Position numbers and translations under genes: made by a program. A DNA stretch of 32,856 nucleotides from a bacterium (GTDB lineage: Bacteria > CSSED10-310 > JAJRTK01). The stretch lies in contig JAJRTK010000355.1 in NCBI GenBank assembly GCA_024278345.1, positions 1 through 32,856 on the forward strand, written 5' to 3'. Shown here one piece after another: positions 314 to 32,856 of the stretch. The notes beneath the pieces are model-generated. The model made no database searches. It saw nothing but the letters and a program-made list of their open reading frames with translations, and had not been told where the DNA came from. Within the stretch, counting starts at the first letter, position 1; the number at the start of each line of letters is the position of its first letter.

Positions 314-1366
314 ATGTTGACAGCACGGGGGAGATGGTCTCTGGGACTGGTTTTGTTGGCGATGATTCCCAACTGTAGCCGAGAGACTCCGGTCCCCGTT
401 TCCAAGCAGCGGTCGGTGTTCGTTCTTCTGGACACTGATGGGGCGGACGACAAGTCGTTCAACGAGTTTACTCGGAAGGGCGCGGAGATAGCGGCCAAGG
501 AAACGGGGCTGGCCTTTTCCTTCCTGACTTCGCCCTCCACCAGCGAGTACGAGCGGCTGCTGGAGAGCACGATTTCGTCGCGCAAACCGGATCTGGTTGT
601 CACCGTGGGCTTCCTGATGAGTGACGCCACGGCAAAAGTGGCGCGGCGCCATCCCGCCGCGTGGTTCGCCGGAATGGACACGGCCTATTTTCCGGGGTTT
701 GGCTGTCCGGAAAGGGTGAAGGACTGTTATTCCAAGGAGGGCGGCCTCACCAACGTCACCAGCCTGGTGTTTGCTGAAGACCAAGTTGCCTATCTTGCGG
801 GAGTGCTGGCCGGCTGCATGACGAAAAGTGGAATTGTGGCCGTGGTGGCCGGGCGCGAGATTCCCCCTGTCGTTCGATATGTGACAGGGTTCCAGACAGG
901 CGCTCTCAGCTTTCGGTCCGACCTGACAGTATTCCACCGATATATCCCGGACTTTGGTTCTCCCATGACCGGAAAACTCGTGGGCCAGGGGTTTATCCAG
1001 CAAGGAGCCGATGTGGTGTTCGCCCCTGCGGGGAAGACGGGGACTGGGGCCTTGGAATCGGCGAAGGAAGCTGGCATCATGGCCATCGGTGTCGATGTCG
1101 ATCAGTACGAGACACTGCCCGTTGTCCGAGAAGTTTTGGTGACCAGCGCCTCAAAAAAGGTAGATCTGGCCGTTGCTGCGCTTGTCCGGGACTTTGCCGC
1201 CGGAAATCTGGAGGCGGGTATCCGCCGGATGACTCTTCGCCAGAACGCTGTGGGCTTGGCTCCGTTCCACGACTGGGAGGAGCGAATCCCTGATGAATGC
1301 AAGGAGGCGATCGCCGAGGCGCGCCGTGCGATCCTCGCCGATCCATCGATCACGGACGCGGATTGA
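314..1366 (+). CDS. BMP/PnrA-family substrate-binding lipoprotein, putative sensor partner of the adjacent kinase
   Basis: The 350-residue protein has an N-terminal signal ([12 protein letters not shown]) with Cys21 as possible lipidation site; the lipobox is atypical (Ile-Pro-Asn before Cys). The mature part carries the BMP family hallmark near residues 42-58 ([14 protein letters not shown]), and continues as a two-lobed type I periplasmic binding protein, including a GVDVDQYE segment near 258. Family members such as PnrA bind purine nucleosides, usually for an ABC transporter. No ATPase or permease gene is nearby; instead the next gene, overlapping this one, is a hybrid histidine kinase. 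I infer a sensory role like LuxP with LuxQ. The ATG at 314 has a strong GAGGGAGG Shine-Dalgarno. The ligand is unknown. Confidence 0.85.
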
Positions 1367-4300
1367 ACCGCGGCAACACGCAACGAGGGGCGCGAAACTG
1401 AACGAGTGTTTTGAACGTCTTCGCCATCCCTTTTGGCCGGTCACTCTGGTCTCCGGTGCCGCGGTGCTCGGAACCGTTGGGGGTCTTGCGGTCGGTGCCT
1501 GGGGGACAGGTGAGGGAAGGCTTCTGGATGCCTCAGCCGTTGCGGGAGGACTGTTTCTAGCCCATCTGTGGGCCTGGATTTACGTCTGGAGATGCAGGCG
1601 ATACGGCGTGGGCATCGGTGTCATCGCCATCGCCCAAATGCTCATGGTGGCTGGCGGAGCTTGCCTCTTGTCGGACTTCTGGTTGTACGGCCTCATGGCC
1701 CTGGCCCTAGTTCCCTTGGAGGTAGCCATCGCCGACCGGCCGGCACGGATGGTCCCTTTTTCCCTCGTCACTCTGTTGAGCGCCGTGGTGATGATGGGAA
1801 TCGAGCTTTGGGATTTTCCGGGCCGTGCGAGCCTACTTGCGGGAATTCCCGGCTTAGCCTTTTGGGCGCCGGGGATCTTGGCGCTTCACGGATTCTGTCT
1901 GCTGGCCTTTTTGTGGATCTTCCGCCTTCGCCGGGGAGGACGGCACGAGATCCGCATCGACCTGGCCACACAGCAGTTCATGCTCTTGGTGCCGGTGGTC
2001 GCTTTCTCCATTGTTCTGGTCACCGGCGTGCTCATCGCGCAGATCCGTCATGCCAAGATCGAGGAAGTCAGCAGAAACTTCCGGACCCTGGCGGAAATCC
2101 AGGGGAGCCGGGTCGCGCGACTCCTGGAAGAGCAGGTTCGGGAGCTGGAGTCCGTCGGTGCGCGGGAGCCACCGATGCTGGAGAGTCTCAGCGTGGCCAA
2201 CGCCAACTACTCGACTTCCAGGACCCGGGTTCAAGGTATGATCCGAACCCGGGAGAAGCGTTGGCAAGAGCCGAATGAGCGGCGGCGGATCATAATGGAA
2301 AAGTTCACGACGGCAGAGTCGATTGCTCTGAGCAAGTTCCGTAGCTACAACATGTTCCACAACAACCTGCTCTTGCTGGATCGGTACGGAGGTCTGGTGG
2401 CGGTCCAGGGGGAGATCCCGGAGAGGTTCTACCACGGCACGGAAGAGTGGTTCCGGGCTGCGTGGAACGAGGGGCAAGGCGGAGTGTACCTGGGCCGGCG
2501 CGAATTCCAACCGGAGACCGGAACGGCCACACTCCGGATCGCCGTGGCCCTCCGGAGCCTGTACACGAATCGCGTCATCGGAGTCTTGACCTCCACCTTC
2601 AAGCTTGCGAGCATCGAGCACTCCATCGAGCTTGCCTCAAAGCGGATCGCCGGAAACCTGCTGCTCCTTGGCCATGACGGTGAGGTGATCGCAGGGCCTG
2701 ACGGGCCGGGCGCGCCTTCGGGGTTGCCTCCCACGTTATTGCTTCTTGAGGAGACTTCGCCACCAGGGGGCATCGATTCGGGCTGGCGGCTGTGGGGTGA
2801 GCAGGCCGGCAGGCCTCTTCTCTTGGGGTTTGCCTCCGTGGGGCGCTCCGATCCTGCATCGTTCGAATCCCTGGGTCCGTTGGGGTGGCGGGTGGTGGTG
2901 AGTGACACGCAGAGGCGTGCTCTCGCCGGTGTGACTCGTTCCACGAAGATCGCCACGCTGGTGGGAATTCTGGCGATGCTGGTGGGTCTCTTCGCGGCGA
3001 CGGCCTTGGCCAAGCTGGTAGCGAGGCCGATCCAGGCTCTCACCGAAACTGCCTCTGCCCTCCGGGAAGGCAACTTCAGCAAGCGGGCAAAATATGCCGG
3101 CCCCGTGGAGCTCGTGACGTTGGCGGAGGCCTTTAACGGCCTTGCATCGCGACTTGGGATGCTCATCAACCGCCTGCAAGACGAGGTGAGGCAGCGGACG
3201 GCACAGCTTGAGTTCCGGCTGACAGAACTGGAAATGCTCAACCAGATCACGCAGGTGGTGGCGTCGGTCCGAAACCTGGAAGCAGGGCTGCACCGCGTCT
3301 GTACTAAGTTGACTCGCCTGCTGCAAGTGTCAAGCTGCTGGATCACGGTTCTCCATGCGGAAAAAGGCGAGCTGACCGTGTTGGCGGAGCACTCCTCCTT
3401 CGACGCCAAGACAGGCGCCACCGGGATTCGGCTTCCCCTGGTGGCGAGTCCCTGTTTTCGGGAGGCCGTGGAATCAAGGACGTCACTCTTCGTCCAGGGA
3501 GCAGCCTCGAGTCCTCTCACCAGCGGAATTCAGGATCTTCTGGAGGAGCGCGGCATTTCGAACCTGCTTCTGGTTCCTCTTCTCTCCATGGGCGAGGTCA
3601 CGGGTGTCATCATGTTGGGGCGAGGGGAAGCCGAGGAGGCTTTTGGAAGTGTGGAGAACCGGCTTGCCGAAACCGTCGCCGGCCAGATCGCTGGCGCCAT
3701 TGAAAACGTCCGCCTTTTCCAAAGCCTGGCCATGGACAAGCAGCGCTTGGAGCTCTTGAATACACTGGGCCAGAATCTTTCCACCCGCCTGGAGCCGGAA
3801 CGGGTTTACGAAGCCATCTATCAGGCGGTGGTTCAGCTCATGGTGACGGAAGCCTTCACGATTGCCCTTCTTGATGAAGACAAGAAGGAGATCGAAATTG
3901 TCTACACGATTCTACGGAACGAGCGGATACCGAGCATCCGGATTCCGGCACACCATGGGCTGAGTGGCCACGTCATCGACACGGGAGAAGCGCTCCACAT
4001 TCACGATGGACAAGAGCCACAAGAGGTCTCTGTTTTTCACTTCGACGACTCCAACCCGACGCGGTCGGCTCTGGCCGTCCCCCTCTGGCGCGGGAACGAG
4101 GCTATCGGGATGCTCACGACCCAGAGCTATCAGCCGGGTGCGTACACCAAAGAGGACCTGCGGACTCTCCTGACCCTTGGGGCGCAGGCAGCCATCGCCA
4201 TAGAGAATGCACGTCTTTTCAAGGAGACAGAAAGGGCCAAGATTGCGGCGGAAGTGGCCAACGAAGCAAAAAGCACCTTTTTGGCCACCATGAGCCACGA

Positions 4301-6455
4301 GATCCGGACTCCCATGAACGGGGTCATCGGCATGACGAGCCTTCTTCTGAACACGGAGCTCACCGACGAGCAGCGGGACTACGTGGAGACAATCCGCGCC
4401 AGCGGAGATGCCCTCCTGACGATCATCAACGACATCTTGGACTTCTCCAAGATCGAGGCTGGAAAGCTCGAACTGGAAAAACAGCCCTTCCACCTCCGAG
4501 AATGCGTCGAAGGCGCTCTGGACCTCCTGGTTCCCAAAGCCGTGGAGAAGGGAATCGAGCTGGCGGCGAGGATCAATCCGAACCTCCCGGAAGTCCTGGT
4601 CGGCGATGAAACCCGCCTGCGGCAGATTCTCATCAACCTCGTGGGCAATGCGCTAAAGTTTACCGACGATGGCGAAGTCGTTGTTTCGGTCTCCTCCAGC
4701 ACCCCCGGGCCGACGATCTCCGGGGATGAGGGAAACCATTCCTCCGCGGGATTGGGCCGGGGCTTGGAGGAGAAAGAGGCGAGCAGTGGGCGCAGGCTTG
4801 CGCCCGATGAGAGCGGCGCACAGCCCAAAAAAGACACACACTTTCCTTCACGGGCCGATGCACTGGGAGGAAAGATTCAAGCTCTGGAAGCCCATGGACC
4901 CATGGAGATCCATTTCATGGTGCGGGACACGGGAATCGGGATTCCACCGGAGAAGATGGAGGGGCTTTTTGAGTCGTTCCGGCAACTGGATGCCTCCACG
5001 AGCCGTCGATACGGAGGAACTGGACTCGGGCTCGCCATCAGCCGCCGGCTGTGCGAGATGATGGGCGGCTGCATGTGGGCAAAGAGCGAGGTGGGCAGGG
5101 GAACCACTTTCCATTTCACGCTCGTGGCTCGGGGCGTGGTAACTCCGGACAGGGAGCCACTCTTTTCACCAAAACCGGTCCTCCAAGGCAAGAAGCTTCT
5201 GTTGGTTGAACGGAGCCAGACCAATCGCGATATTATCAAGACTTGGGGGGCAGCGTGGGGTCTTGAGGTTCGGCAGACTGACTCGCCGGCCGAAGCCCTG
5301 GAGTGGACGGCTTCGGGGGAGAGCTTCGAAGCGGCTCTCCTGGGAGCTCCCATGACGCAGATGGGAGTTGGCGTGCTGGCCGCCACGTTGCGGAGCGAGC
5401 AACCGCGGATCGCGACGGTGGCTTTGGCTACGCTCCACGAATGGGAGAAGATCCGGCTGTCCGGAATGGGCTCCGAGTTCGTCGATTACGTGGTCAAACC
5501 CCTCCGCCTGGAGCACCTCCTGGAGACGCTCCACAAAGTCTTGGGCGACAGCAAGGAGGCGGTGAAAGGGAAGCTCTGGAAATCCCCCAAGTCGCTGGAC
5601 GAGTCCCTGGGCGATCGCCTGGAGCTGCGGATCCTTCTGGCGGAAGACAATCCCACGAACCAAAAGCTGGCCGTGGCGCTCCTGGGCCAATTGGGATTCA
5701 GGGTGGACGTGGCGGGCAATGGCCTCGAAGTCTTGGACGCCTTGGAGCGGCAGACTTACGACCTTGTGCTCATGGACATGCAGATGCCGGAAATGGATGG
5801 GCTCGAAGCGACTCGCGGCATTCGCCGGCAGTGGCCCGGCAAGGAGGGTCCCCGCATCGTGGCCATGACAGCCAACGCAATGCAAGGGGACCGCGAGCGG
5901 TGTCTGGCTGTAGGGATGGACGACTACGTGAGCAAGCCGGTCCGAGTGGACGAGCTTGTCCAAGCCCTTGTGAGAACGGGAGATGCCCTCAACGCCTGGG
6001 TCGAGCCGCAAGAAATCTCCTCAGAGGAGAAGGCGGGCCAAAAAACTGGTGTGTCAGCCTTGGGGAGAGGAGTGGGAACTGGGCCGCCACCGGTGGCAGC
6101 CCGTGGCGAAGAGACGGAGGAATTCGATCCAGCGGCCTTGGAGCTCCTCCGGGAGATGGTGGGAGGCTCCGAGCCGTTGATGGAACTCGTCGGTGTCTGG
6201 TTGGAGGATGCACCCAACCTTCTGGAGCAGATGAACGATGGGGTGGTGGGAGGCGAGGTGGCAGAAGTCCGTATCGCCGCCCACAGCCTGAAGGCGAGCG
6301 CCGCCGATTTCGGGGCACGCCGCCTTTCCCGGATCTGCGGTCAAATCGAGAAGATCGCACGAACCGAGAGCCTTGAAGGCGTGCGAGAACTGGTAAAAGA
6401 GGCCCACGCACAGTATGAGAAGGTTGAGGCGAAATTGAAAAGGGCCACGGCCTGA
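1293..6455 (+). CDS. Large hybrid histidine kinase: 7 TM, Cache-like, HAMP, 2 GAF, HisKA, HATPase, two REC, Hpt
   Basis: The 1720-residue protein has TM segments near 50-70, 81-99, 107-127, 130-146, 155-173, 189-210 and 229-250. A Cache-like region (about 255-545), another TM (550-572) and HAMP follow, then GAF domains near 660-800 and 840-980. HisKA carries [10 protein letters not shown] with His1002. The HATPase has its N box (NLVGNALKF) near 1115 and DTGIGI near 1212, separated by an unusual loop of about 75 residues containing a family B repeat. The first receiver (about 1300-1425) is degenerate: the phospho-Asp position is Gly (LLGAPM). The second is canonical ([11 protein letters not shown], Asp1495). 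A C-terminal Hpt (AHSLKASA, His1664) completes a phosphorelay. The ATG at 1293 overlaps the BMP gene by 74 bases; the Arg-rich start is doubtful, and GTG 1326 is an alternative. Confidence 0.93.
4768..4840 (+). repeat. Family B palindromic repeat inserted in frame in the kinase ATPase domain
   Basis: The stretch contains a perfect hairpin (GGGCGCA-GGCT-TGCGCCC, 4789-4806) between GAAAGAGGCGAGC on the left and GAGAGCGGCGCACAGCCCAA on the right. The same flanks and order occur at 27058-27125, 8299-8375, 21843-21895 and, reversed, 25508-25580. It is translated here as [19 protein letters not shown], and the corresponding frame elsewhere gives similar peptides. It lies between the N and D boxes of the ATPase domain, where most kinases have a short connection. 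Confidence 0.7.
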
Positions 6456-8298: not shown

Positions 8299-8375
8299 GG
8301 GGAAAAACGGCAAGCAGCGGGTGCCGGACGGTGCCCGATGGGAGCGGAACTCAGAGCAAAGAGAGCAAAGGGGTA
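8299..8375 (+). repeat. Family B repeat, diverged copy in the spacer between SDR and GntR genes
   Basis: The segment reads GCAAGCAGCGGG, an imperfect hairpin CGGGTGCCGG..CGGTGCCCG, then GATGGGAGCGGAACTCAG and CAAAGAGAG. This aligns base by base with the copy inside the kinase (4768-4840). The matching frame gives TASSGCRTVPDGSGTQSKES. The rest of 8163-8426 shows no gene or clear terminator. Confidence 0.55.
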
Positions 8376-16871: not shown

Positions 16872-16918
16872 TGTCTCATTATGAGACAGTGGGTGGAGAA
16901 CTGTCTCGTTTCGAGAGT
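16872..16918. promoter_or_regulatory. Paired TGTCTC palindromes, candidate activator-binding site
   Basis: TGTCTCAT-T-ATGAGACA (16872-16888) is a perfect palindrome. A second, imperfect one (TCTCG-TTT-CGAGA, 16904-16916, preceded by TG) is centred 30 bases away, about three helical turns. This spacing is typical of cooperative dimer sites, such as enhancers of sigma-54 activators. The protein that binds is unknown. A candidate sigma-54 promoter lies downstream beyond a transposon-like repeat. Confidence 0.5.
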
Positions 16919-16925
16919 ATCTACG

Positions 16926-17219
16926 GGGTATCCACGCAAAGCGGGACAATGGGTCGCCGGGGAAAACACTTGACATCGGGCAGCGCCGCGCTCCGCTCGG
17001 CGGGTCACGTTTGCGTGACTCGAAGGGTCACGCCGCGCGTTACCCGAAGGTCGTCCGGGGACGCTGTCCCCCGTCCCCTGGCAGGACTTCGCCCTGCACC
17101 CACCAGGGAGCTCGCAAGGACCCGTTGCAATGAAAAGCAACGAGTTCCCCACCCACATTTTTGTGCGCTGCGCGTTTTCCTTTTATTTCCAATCTTTGTC
17201 CCGCCTTGCGTGGATACCC
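16926..17219 (+). mobile_element. Family A element A2a: intact 294-bp MITE-like unit with 8-bp target duplication
   Basis: The element starts GGGTATCCACGC and ends GCGTGGATACCC; the inverted repeats are 23 bp with one mismatch. It is flanked by a perfect direct repeat TATCTACG at 16918-16925 and 17220-17227. Inside are the family hairpins: GTCACG/CGTGAC, GGGGAC/GTCCCC, GGCAGGAC..CCTGC, GGGAGCTC and CGTTGCAA..AGCAACG. It encodes no transposase. Eight-base duplications with GG-type ends are known for IS families such as ISL3, IS1595 and IS256, any of which might mobilise it; this is inference. Confidence 0.8.
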
Positions 17220-17290
17220 TATCTACGCAAGGCGGGACAGGTCGCTGGGGAAAACACTTGGCCTCGGACCCCGCCGCGCTTCGCCACTGG
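17220..17290. repeat. Truncated older family A copy A2b, target of the A2a insertion
   Basis: After the direct repeat the sequence continues as a second family A end (CTACGCAAGGCGGGACAGG), then GGGGAAAACACTTGGCCTCGG. This parallels the left interior of A2a (GGGGAAAACACTTGACATCGG) before the similarity fades near 17290. A2a therefore inserted into the tip of this older remnant. Confidence 0.7.
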
Positions 17291-19959: not shown

Positions 19960-20180
19960 TTTCTGGCCTCCGGGCAATGCCTCGCTCCGCTTGGCGGGGA
20001 ACGCCTCGCGTTACTCGGCAGTTGTCCGAAAACTGTAGCATGCGGGTCTCCCGGCCCGCATGCATCGGGCTTTGCCCTGCACCCACCAGGGAGTTATCTT
20101 AGGTCCCGTTGCAACTGACGGGCAACGGGATCTCCACCCACATCTTTATACCTGCGCGGTTTTTTGACGCTCCGCGTCTT
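19960..20180 (+). repeat. Family A copy A3, lacking terminal repeats
   Basis: This copy has the family modules in order: GGGCAATGCCTCGCTCCGC, GGGAACGCCTCGCGTTAC, a module GCATGCGGG..CCCGCATGC unique to this copy, GGGCTTTGCCCTGCACCCAC, CAGGGAG, and CCGTTGC..GGCAACGG. The terminal inverted repeats are absent and the right side runs directly into a family B copy. The remaining 19799-19959 is the leader region of the lipoprotein gene. Confidence 0.65.
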
Positions 20181-20248
20181 TTCTTTCATTCTTTGGGGTG
20201 GTTCGATTCTCCCATAAACGTTATTCTCTTTGTGCTCCACTGCGCCCC

Positions 20249-20272
<24 letters not shown>
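20181..20272 (-). repeat. Family B repeat overlapping the sigma-54 activator 3' end
   Basis: Read on the minus strand it starts CTAAAGAGGGATGA and ends ATGGGAGAATCGAACC, CCCAAAGAATGAAAG, matching the two ends of family B (TAAAGAGGCGAG...GGGAGCGGA..CCCAAAGAAAG) with a diverged middle. The activator's last residues (LAKEG, then stop) fall in the left end. Confidence 0.5.
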
Positions 20273-21769
<1,497 letters not shown>

Positions 21770-21842
21770 TGGGTGGAGCTCCAGGAATCGGGGAATTTTC
21801 AGGACCGGGGAGCAAGATCCATCGTGGGGGCGATGATTGGCG

Positions 21843-21895
21843 ATGGGCGCGAACGGCCGTGAGCGACGGGAGCGGAAGGCAACCCAAAGAAAGAG
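21843..21895 (+). repeat. Family B repeat, copy upstream of the sigma-54 activator
   Basis: GACGGGAGCGGAAGGCAACC then CAAAGAAAGAG matches the right half of family B. The left part (GGCGATGGGCGCGAACGGCC) is more diverged. The matching frame reads SDGSGRQPKERAS. The rest of the 21770-22016 spacer has no recognised gene; a sequence GGTGGATAATCCCGTGAATC near 21963 has no assigned role. Confidence 0.55.
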
Positions 21896-23255: not shown

Positions 23256-24797
23256 CTATCCTTCCTTGTTGATGGTAACGCCCGATGGCTGAGATCCCGA
23301 ACTCTTCCACCCATTGGCTTGGGCGGCTGAATCGCCTTGGGCTCCAGAAAGGGGCTCCCGCTGCTCTCCATCACCTTGGGCTCCAGAAAGGGGCTCCCGC
23401 TGCTCTCCATCAGCCGGGCTCGCAGATACAAGACTCGGCTCCCCGTCCTCCGTGAGCTCCCGGGAAGAAGAATGAGCAACTTTTTCCCTCCCATCGCCGC
23501 TGGCCGGGGCAGGGCTTTTGGCGGGAGACACCACAGCCGCGGGCTGCCCGGGCTTCATCAATTGGAGCTCGTGGAGCCGGTTCCCCTCCACACGCCGAAT
23601 CACGAAGCGCAACGTCCCCAGCGAGATCGCCGCCCCCTCCGGCGGAAGCTCGCCATATTCGTGAAGGAGCAGGCCAGCGACAGTCTCGGCGCTATCTTCG
23701 TCCAGCGTGAGCCGCAGGATCTCGTTGAGGCGGGTGACCGGCATTGCCCCTGGCACCAGATAGCCGCCCTCGTCCAAAGGCTCGAGCTCTTGTCTCCACC
23801 GAAGATCCGAAGCGCTGTAGATGTCGCCGAAAATGCACTCCAGGAGGTCTTCCATGGTCACAAGCCCGGTGAGGCCGCCGTACTCGTCCACCGCCAGCGC
23901 CAAAGAGAGCTTCCGGCGACGGAAAGCGTGGAAGAGATCGGACAGTGGCTTGGTTTCCGGAACAAAATAGGCGGGCCGAAGAAGCTCCCGTGGCAAAACG
24001 CTTTCGTTCTTCAGCGCAGCCAAGTCCATGCCCAGAAGATCCCTAGAAAAAAGGATTCCCACCACGTTGTCCCGGGTCTCCCGGAAAACGGGAACTTTCG
24101 AGTACCGAGTCCGCCGAAACTCCTTCACCACCATCTCCAGCGGCGTCTCCTCCGGAAAGAAGAAGATACCGGCCCGGGGCGTCATCACTTCTTCCACGGT
24201 AAGGTTGCCAAAATCGAAGATTTGCGAGATATATCGCGCCTCCTCGTCCCCTAGTGAACCTTCTCCAACCGCTTCTCCCGCCAACGTTCGGAGCATGTCC
24301 TCGGTCATGATGTTTCCCCGGGAACGCTCCTTCCCCACAAGGCGTGTGATGCACCAGTCCGCCACCTTTCGAACAATTCGCCGAAGAGGCGTAATCAGCC
24401 TGGCGAATCGGTCGATGAACGGCGCTTGAAAAGCCGCGAAGCCGACGTTGTTCCGGATCGCAAGTGTCTTCGGCGTGATTTCCCCAAAAAGCAACAGGAG
24501 CGGAACCATGATGAAAAGATTCGCAAACTTGTTGTCCGCACCCAGCAATTCGATGACCAGGGAAGCAGAAATCGCTGTCGCCGAAACATTGACAAGCTCA
24601 TTCCCAATAAGAATCGTGATAATGAGCCGCCTTGGCTCGCTCACCAGCCGTTCCACAAGCTTGGCCCGCTTGTGGCCTTTTTCCTTCATCGCCCGGAGTT
24701 GCCGATCCGTGAGCGAAAAAAGGCTCGTTTCCGAGCTCGAAAAGAAACCAGAAAAACCAAGCAGAATGATGAAGAGAGCCACTTGAAACCAGAACAT
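23256..24797 (-). CDS. CorC/HlyC (CNNM-DUF21, CBS) membrane protein with long repetitive tail, first of tandem pair
   Basis: From ATG 24797 the protein has 513 residues: CNNM/DUF21 domain with four hydrophobic segments, CBS pair (VEEVMTPRAGIFFFPE; LALAVDEYGGLTGLVTMEDL) and CorC_HlyC domain (YLVPGAMPVTRLNEIL ... GTLRFVIRRVEG). After about residue 425 comes a low-complexity tail rich in Ser, Pro, Gly, Glu, containing two identical 13-residue units. TTG 24806 has better Shine-Dalgarno spacing (GGGAG) and is a possible start. The tail has no counterpart in the downstream paralogue, whose two-gene order is common in bacteria. Confidence 0.9.
   Translation of the reverse strand: MFWFQVALFIILLGFSGFFSSSETSLFSLTDRQLRAMKEKGHKRAKLVERLVSEPRRLIITILIGNELVNVSATAISASLVIELLGADNKFANLFIMVPLLLLFGEITPKTLAIRNNVGFAAFQAPFIDRFARLITPLRRIVRKVADWCITRLVGKERSRGNIMTEDMLRTLAGEAVGEGSLGDEEARYISQIFDFGNLTVEEVMTPRAGIFFFPEETPLEMVVKEFRRTRYSKVPVFRETRDNVVGILFSRDLLGMDLAALKNESVLPRELLRPAYFVPETKPLSDLFHAFRRRKLSLALAVDEYGGLTGLVTMEDLLECIFGDIYSASDLRWRQELEPLDEGGYLVPGAMPVTRLNEILRLTLDEDSAETVAGLLLHEYGELPPEGAAISLGTLRFVIRRVEGNRLHELQLMKPGQPAAVVSPAKSPAPASGDGREKVAHSSSRELTEDGEPSLVSASPADGEQREPLSGAQGDGEQREPLSGAQGDSAAQANGWKSSGSQPSGVTINKEG
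23335..23412 (-). repeat. Perfect 2 x 39-bp tandem repeat in the CorC-like gene
   Basis: Two identical 39-base units (23335-23373 and 23374-23412) encode GEQREPLSGAQGD twice. Identity at synonymous positions points to recent slippage or unequal recombination. The number of units may vary between strains. Confidence 0.9.
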
Positions 24798-25507: not shown

Positions 25508-25580
25508 TCTTCTTTTCTTGGGTTGAGTCCGCTCCCGTCATCGTCCATCCGGCCGACGCCACTCGCCTCTTTAGCGCCCG
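25508..25580 (-). repeat. Family B repeat, reverse orientation
   Basis: Read on the minus strand: CTAAAGAGGCGAGTGGCG, a GC-rich imperfect stem, GACGGGAGCGGACTCAACCC, AAGAAAAGAAGAG. It aligns over its full length with the copy at 27058-27125 and with that in the kinase gene. Its frame reads AKEASGVGRMDDDGSGLNPRKEE. Confidence 0.68.
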
Positions 25581-26556: not shown

Positions 26557-26616
26557 AGAGACCCCATCACCCAGTCAGATACCGAAAGGTAATCCGAGGA
26601 CACCGGCCCGGGATTC

Positions 26617-26881
26617 GCGTATCCACGCAAGGCGGGACAGAACAGAAAAAAAAGGAGAACGCGTAGCGTATAAAAACGTGGGCTGGGAGCCCGTTGCTCG
26701 CAAGTTGCAACGGGAAGAGGAGCACGCTCCCTGGTGGGTGCGGGGCGAAGCCCTGCCAGGGGATGGAATCCCCGGACCACCTTCGGGTAACGCGCGGCGT
26801 GACCCGCCGAGCGATAGCGAGGCCTTGCCCGGACGCTTGCGATTCCACGGTCCCGGGAATGTCCCGCCTTGCGTGGATACC
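26617..26881 (-). mobile_element. Family A element A4, intact, flanked by direct repeats
   Basis: The element runs from GTATCCACGCAAGGCGGG to CCCGCCTTGCGTGGATAC, with perfect inner inverted repeats. CCCGGGATTC flanks it directly at 26607-26616 and 26882-26891, consistent with a target duplication of about 8-10 bases. Inside are GTTGC..GCAAC, GGGAGC-type, GGGGCGAAGCCC, GGGGATGGAATCCCC and GGGTAACGC..CGTGACCC modules. It carries no coding sequence of note and closely matches A1 apart from one missing hairpin. Confidence 0.75.
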
Positions 26882-26896
26882 CCCGGGATTCTCATC

Positions 26897-27133
26897 ATGG
26901 ATCCGCAAGACATCTTCCCCACCCTTCCACCAGCCTCCTCGGCGGCGGGAGCCCCGACGGTTGACACGACTGCGCCTCCGGGGGCCGCCTCTTCGTCCCC
27001 CTGGTGGAAACAGGCCCCACTGCCTTGCTATGATCGATCTGCTAGGGAGCCCGTAGATAAAAAGGCGAGTGGCGGCGGAGGGATTTCCGCCGACGTGAGC
27101 GGACCCAACCCAAAGAAAGAAAAGCTGTATTAA
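26897..27133 (+). CDS. Possible small Pro/Ala/Ser-rich protein ending in a family B peptide
   Basis: An open frame of 78 codons starts at ATG 26897, directly after element A4, without a visible Shine-Dalgarno. It is rich in Pro, Ala and Ser in its first half (FPTLPPASSAAGAP) and ends with the family B peptide KKASGGGGISADVSGPNPKK. No known domain is seen. It may be a gene remnant whose start was displaced by A4, or not a gene at all. Confidence 0.3.
   Translation: MDPQDIFPTLPPASSAAGAPTVDTTAPPGAASSSPWWKQAPLPCYDRSAREPVDKKASGGGGISADVSGPNPKKEKLY
27058..27125 (+). repeat. Family B repeat, copy upstream of the serine hydrolase gene
   Basis: TAAAAAGGCGAGTGGC, a hairpin GGCGGA-GGGATT-TCCGCC, then GACGTGAGCGGACCCAACCC and AAAGAAAGAAAAG. 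This is the clearest copy of the family, ending about 65 bases before the hydrolase start. Confidence 0.7.
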
Positions 27134-32471: not shown

Positions 32472-32494
32472 GCTCTGTTTTTTTGATTGCTTTT

Positions 32495-32707
32495 GGGGTA
32501 TCCACGTAAGGCGGGACAAAACGAGAAACAAAGAGACAGGCGCGAAGCGCCCCACCACGTGGGTCCAGGGAGCGAGCTCCCTGGTGGGTGCAGGGCAACG
32601 CCCTGCCAGGGGACGGGGGACGGAGTCCCCGAACGACCGCCGAGCAACGCGAGGCGTTGATACGACGCAAGATAATACCGAATTGTCCCGCCTTACGCGA
32701 ATACCCC
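32495..32707 (-). mobile_element. Family A element A5, upstream of pilin 2
   Basis: The element is bounded by GGGGTATCCACGTAAGGCGG and CCGCCTTACGCGAATACCCC, inverted repeats of about 24 bp with three mismatches. It contains GGCGCGAAGCGCC, CAGGGAGCGAGCTCCCTG, GCAGGGCAACGCCCTGC, GGGGACGGAGTCCCC and AACGCGAGGCGTT hairpins in a row. No direct repeat flanks it; its right end meets copy A6. Confidence 0.75.
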
Positions 32708-32712
32708 AGGGC

Positions 32713-32856
32713 GGATATCAACGTAAGCCGGGACACCCGCCAAAACCAAGACGCAACGCGTCGTACATGAATGTGGGCAGGGATCCCGTTGCCCTTCGTT
32801 GCAACGGGAAGTTGAGCGAGCTCCCTGGTGGGTGCAGGGCAAAGCCCTGCCGGGGA
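32713..32856 (-). repeat. Family A copy A6, cut by the window end
   Basis: It starts GGATATCAACGTAAGCCGGG, the same terminal repeat seen at the end of A1, and continues through CGTTGC..GCAACG, GGGAGC-type and GCAGGGCAAAGCCCTGC modules to the window edge. It is head-to-tail with A5. Confidence 0.7.

Follow-up and report, generated by a model that had tools for sequence, protein, structure and literature searches.

A dispersed bacterial repeat, probably a MITE family, with a strand-specific hairpin core and one copy inside a sensor kinase gene

The window analysed here, a stretch of 32,856 nucleotides, encodes a hybrid sensor histidine kinase (positions 1293-6455, plus strand; start placed at 1464 by the gene finder) whose architecture, judged from Pfam and the translation, is dCache-HAMP-GAF-GAF-HisKA-HATPase-REC-REC-Hpt. 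The original prediction held that a portable palindromic repeat had created an extra in-frame loop in the ATPase domain of this protein. The question raised by this locus is whether such a repeat is kept as a piece of protein, or whether its nucleic acid is the part under constraint. The loop itself is borne out by comparison with related kinases. Between the KF and DTGIG motifs the window kinase has 90 amino acids, compared with 36, 34, 29, 29 and 29 in the comparators, which comprise four homologues (L156, L159, L179 and L180; 29-36 amino acids) and a paralogue from the same genome (L167; 29 amino acids), with L170 left out because its value is a parsing artefact. Alignments to the best listed homologues split into two pieces around the loop. 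Together, homologue alignment and spacing indicate 54-61 additional amino acids (162-183 nucleotides) in a plus-strand stretch of approximate extent 4701-4892 that is absent from the aligned homologues. The homologue L158 carries its own shorter and unrelated extra loop at this site, according to an alignment in which L167 and L179 were given no weight, and the site therefore tolerates length changes.

A repeat core is present at 4774-4836 on the plus strand, in frame in the kinase (70.5 bits and E = 1e-20 with our covariance model, R1). Both nhmmer and R1 agree on four further copies in the window, in both orientations: 8305-8367 (plus, 67.0 bits), 21835-21895 (plus, 57.9 bits), 25510-25571 (minus, 65.5 bits, flanks weakly recognisable) and 27060-27121 (plus, 73.1 bits, with the next gene 71 nucleotides downstream). 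Each of the five has an R1 E-value below 1e-15, and by the gene finder calls only the kinase copy is internal to a gene, the others being intergenic. A sixth copy had been proposed at 20181-20272, and this one was reported by neither method, the R1 search having listed hits up to E = 1. The view that the repeat belongs to no known family has held so far, in that the 4227 Rfam models gave no gathering-level match in the window, and a scan of ten loci with the cutoff relaxed to E = 5 brought up no relevant family. The window also contains a second, unrelated family of GC-rich dispersed repeats (1-238, 16915-17284, 19979-20143, 26614-26893 and 32493-32856; up to 122 nucleotides at 93% identity, ends of the TGTCCCGCCTTACGTGGATACCC type occurring in both orientations), as well as a 39-bp tandem duplication with 97% identity at 23331-23408, inside a CNNM/CBS transporter gene.

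The family is far larger than the window suggests. Whole-genome BLAST with positions 4740-4860 as the query yielded 40 places. With R1, the window and 20 large-contig stretches, 397 kb in all, yielded 61 copies, the E-values jumping clearly from below 2e-6 to above 0.08. R1 found a further 83 copies at E<2e-6 in 636 kb (contigs C1-C61) and 58 copies at E<1e-5 in 394 kb (contigs C62-C102), these two sets having been picked by contig number and not by hits. Together these make 202 copies in 1.43 Mb. At this density of about one every 7 kb, the 6.06-Mb genome would contain roughly 860 copies, or about 800-900, and a genome-wide R1 search gave at least 150. Several near-identical copies sit at contig ends, so the assembly probably understates the true number. 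Among 114 copies that a simple gene finder could classify in 1.03 Mb (two-thirds of the sample), 111 are intergenic and 3 lie within confidently called genes, with another 25 copies beside contig or stretch edges left out of this count. In gaps between genes of the same direction there is a mild orientation bias, with 47 copies co-directional and 27 opposite.

What the copies have in common is an oriented core of about 63 nucleotides, for which an alignment of 32 copies from the first BLAST set gives the consensus AAnAGGCGAGCAGCGGGnGCCGGACnGCGCCCGATGnGAGCGGAACnCAACCCAAAGAAAAA. It comprises one hairpin with a G.A-rich internal loop, followed by a conserved, unpaired, A-rich tail. The hairpin is laid out as a closing GC/GC, a 3x3 GAG/AGA internal loop, CA/UG, a G.A pair and then a variable stem, which stays paired although its sequence differs between copies; in the kinase copy, RNAalifold and pair counts place it at 4779-4814, and the tail (consensus GGAACnCAACCCAAAGAAAA) occupies 4815-4836, both on the plus strand. 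When given the alignment alone, RNAalifold predicted a single hairpin with the same pairs that had been drawn by eye beforehand. Similarity among the copies might have fallen to chance in a proper alignment, and this did not occur: the number of paired cells, the double changes and the covariation each exceed all 500 shuffles. Cells changed on both sides number 37, whereas the shuffles give 9.8 and none of the 500 attains 37, and the covariation score is 0.378 versus at most 0.125 when the pairing partners are slid. Outside the core, the whole element offers only weak consensus pairs.

The mismatches are as informative as the pairs. Over 202 copies, the non-Watson-Crick cells comprise 193 G.U, 14 A.C and 291 others (mainly G.A and C.U at recurrent upper-stem positions), all counted per copy and not per mutational event, such that subfamily inheritance inflates them; even so, G.U equals or exceeds A.C in each of the 12 pairs. 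In the seed copies, which were collected purely by sequence, there are 36 G.U and 1 A.C. An artefact of detection by covariance model was considered and rejected, given that a base-pair-free model (R2) recovers 127 of the 141 source copies and no structure-broken extras. If the hairpin were recognised as a double strand, a C-G pair should turn into T-G as readily as into C-A, so the polarity indicates one folded strand and disfavours a double-strand palindrome. Compensatory changes exceed the controls and the wobble pairs are strand-polar, and we have good confidence that constraint acts on the core in its folded, single-stranded form. Tolerance of G.U fits RNA and folded single-stranded DNA equally and does not distinguish between them.

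Around this core, the youngest copies reveal a larger element of 146-172 bp with imperfect inverted ends GGTGGTGCTC...GAGCACGACC, no transposase gene and 8-bp target duplications, a length made by many DDE transposases. Direct repeats of 8 bp flank copies in L054 (AGAAGATC), L058 (CGTTTTCG), L103 (TGTTTTCG) and L216 (CGATCTCT, where the right end is slightly extended), and CGGTTTCT, GGAATCCT, CGATGACC and GAAAGAGG are distributed among L082, L108 and two copies in L076; a further repeat, CAGCTTCA, spans two contig ends (L056/L053), and L087 has a duplication with one mismatch. About ten young copies carry an 8-bp duplication, and clear ends or duplications are confined to a minority of all copies. 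Exact repeats of 9, 10 and 11 bp occur in 9, 6 and 3 of 139 copies, versus 2.2, 0.2 and 0.1 in controls, the extra length over 8 coming from matching bases of the element ends that adjoin the duplication. Two copies, both full-length, have empty-site counterparts in other copies of their host repeat: L224:171 compared with L135 and L075 (an insert of about 150 nucleotides with an imperfect 8-bp duplication), and L108:396 compared with L109 and with another site in L108. Of 31 end-like sites located without using the core, 27 adjoin a core. Core-adjacent duplications in flank-less copies are not clearly above control. We consider it very probable that the young copies are MITEs. The kinase insert of 162-183 nucleotides fits a full-length element plus its duplication better than the 63-nucleotide core, and we read this copy as an old in-frame insertion in a length-variable ATPase loop, its core intact and its ends no longer recognisable.

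A DDE transposase would presumably move the element in trans. Genome-wide searches for four families, in a genome that is 88% complete, found no mobilising transposase with these ends: there was no IS256-type gene, one IS4/5-type fragment, only broken ISL3-type copies and one RAYT. The ISL3 copies are rejected as partners because they are broken, as is the IS4/5-type fragment, whose ends are unrelated. In 1.43 Mb there is no credible autonomous insertion sequence with the same ends and an exact 8-bp repeat, and the longer hits obtained at 3 mismatches have ends unlike those of the MITE and look like chance. One ISL3-type transposase is split by another inserted repeat (L099, about 341-547), with ends TGGTCATAGTACCGGCCAC and GTGGCCCGTACCATGACC. 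Each of the two reverse transcriptase genes has a copy of the family within about 0.7 kb, where the background density is one copy per 7 kb; the retron-like reverse transcriptase at L094 1408-2280 has its copy on the opposite strand, about 70 nucleotides beyond the end of the gene.

Two quite different accounts of the family can be measured against these observations. One is that it represents a protein-inserted element like those of Rickettsia, which persists because the cell tolerates or profits from its peptide. In-frame sense copies lie in the kinase, in a DUF2298/PMT protein (L090) and in an M14 peptidase (L086), and the copy in the DUF2298/PMT/NHL fusion protein (L090 284-6190) falls in an interval about 97 amino acids longer than in phylum homologues. 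The Rickettsia elements (PMC10969869) are similar in having a palindromic unit of about 150 bp that lies in frame in unrelated genes, although they are reported to lie mostly inside genes, whereas here the genic copies number 3 of the 114 that could be classified and the family has neither a mostly coding location nor a fixed frame. The original prediction was thus correct about the kinase copy itself and less so about the family. All three genic copies are on the sense strand, in frames 1, 1 and 0; since two frames are used, the related peptides that had been proposed for a single frame are by-products of the common nucleotide core. The conserved columns, moreover, follow the pairing and the G.U polarity. 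We therefore regard a protein-level explanation as very improbable.

The other account supposes that the core is a mobile single-stranded DNA hairpin, of the REP or IS200/IS605-like kind moved by a Y1 HUH transposase, that was captured by MITEs. REP/REPIN-RAYT systems place hundreds of short intergenic hairpins with a GTAG/GGAG foot in a genome. The similarities to such systems (PMC3116915) include the hundreds of short intergenic hairpins and the presence of a RAYT gene, and a strand-specific hairpin with many copies lacking ends or duplications would suit this model. The only RAYT found (L092 1012-1737) has a diverged copy of the repeat overlapping its 3' end. However, this RAYT has its own GTAG-type hairpins, GTAGGGGCGGGTT, which are unlike the core, two of them lying in its frame and encoding GSEPAPTQPDTTDRA. 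The core of our family has the foot GGCGAG in place of GTAG/GGAG, is longer, has a conserved tail and resides in elements with inverted ends and target duplications, and on these grounds we rejected REP/RAYT identity. Given that both copies with empty sites are full-length MITEs, and that the kinase insert is not the approximately 65 nucleotides to be expected of a mobile core, this account is improbable.

A further question is whether the core is constrained only in active source elements, copies in place having no function, with the intact cores beside unrecognisable flanks coming from subfamilies with other flanks or from short gene conversion between copies. In the 12 youngest full-length copies, non-consensus positions amount to 4% of the left flank and 2.5% of the right flank versus about 2% of the conserved core, a slight difference in variability that is in keeping with such a model. 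Among 34 full-length copies with diverged flanks the values are 18% for flanks and 5-7% for the core, with the variable stem changing about as fast as the flanks. There are also at least two, and perhaps three, flank types (L224, L111/L223). L111:548 and L223:9259 have flanks of 68 and 66 nucleotides in common; their outer ends, CCWYCCCCTCATTT, are of another kind, and the main difference between the two copies is the length of the hairpin tip. They represent either a further, third type of element or a nested one. L076:4534 or L108:396 and L082:11822 have flanks that are 88-93% identical and hairpin stems that are entirely different, including a tip about 24 nucleotides longer, as if the stem had been swapped between copies, which would be a sign of exchange.

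Against a transposon-only explanation stand the copies whose flanks are no longer recognised. Two flank profiles, which drifted together and define no clean subfamilies, recognise 105 of 197 copies and leave 92 that match neither, and the cores of the latter are as intact as the rest: GGCGA is kept at 0.70 in recognised versus 0.76 in unrecognised copies, GAGCGGA at 0.80 versus 0.84, and the 92 copies have G.U and A.C in a ratio of 18:0 in near-invariant pairs. A single subfamily profile had left 98 of 139 copies with unrecognisable flanks; these have inverted ends at background level, and a search for alternative inverted ends among them found none. Two explanations offer themselves, namely that cores are retained once inserted, or that there is a greater variety of flanks than the two profiles cover. 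Variety of the latter kind is at least partly real, since L111 and L223 have different outer ends, and part of the flank-less class may represent unrecognised subfamilies rather than decayed copies. On balance we consider constraint in source elements alone to be a possible but rather unlikely explanation. Our preferred reading, to which we assign a probability of roughly 0.6, is a lineage-specific, non-autonomous MITE family with a strand-specific structured core, of which the kinase copy is an old insertion.

The family seems restricted in its distribution. An exact pattern was absent from 84,980 other species genomes and from viral contigs, a set in which its own or near genomes were possibly masked. 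R1 gave no convincing score in the other genomes searched, seven of them of the same phylum; the best match overall, in G031, reached 26 bits with E = 1.8e-4 per genome. The closest parallels are the prokaryotic MITEs Correia/NEMIS, QMITE2 of Coxiella, Chunjie and ERIC, which are similar in size, inverted ends, target duplications, a mostly intergenic location and the occurrence of truncated relics without ends, and which are described in a review as forming stable transcript structures, with ERIC reaching 711 copies in Photorhabdus (PMC10969869). In contrast to these, our family has an internal, oriented hairpin that is separate from the inverted ends and outlasts them, with compensatory changes and a G.U/A.C polarity; sequence relationship to them was checked through Rfam only. 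The BOX, RUP and SPRITE repeats of Streptococcus pneumoniae are likewise small and dispersed with predicted RNA structure, and are thought to be parasitic and sometimes transcribed, although BOX is built from A-B-C modules in a different lineage, whereas here a single core sits in a MITE with 8-bp duplications (PMC3049150).

If the preferred reading is right, constraint would fall on one strand of the core in its folded form, the simplest case being an RNA bound by protein, and this constraint might act during mobility, after insertion, or both. Selection on the core in place after insertion is plausible, though somewhat less likely than not. Any claim on the hairpin's binding partner or activity would be speculation. 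It is common to regard small dispersed bacterial repeats as parasites in decay whose foldback structure is incidental. In this family, several hundred insertions reveal which strand and which pairs are kept, and the copies themselves serve as the test. Selection in place, if confirmed, would define a route by which a genome can gain many copies of one structured RNA module. It is a tentative and rather doubtful further proposal that the MITEs disperse a sequence-diverse but structure-conserved RNA module that is selected at hundreds of sites after the ends decay. If true, bacteria would have in this family their equivalent of SINEs with a conserved core, and its copies would build an RNA regulatory or protein-binding network specific to the lineage.
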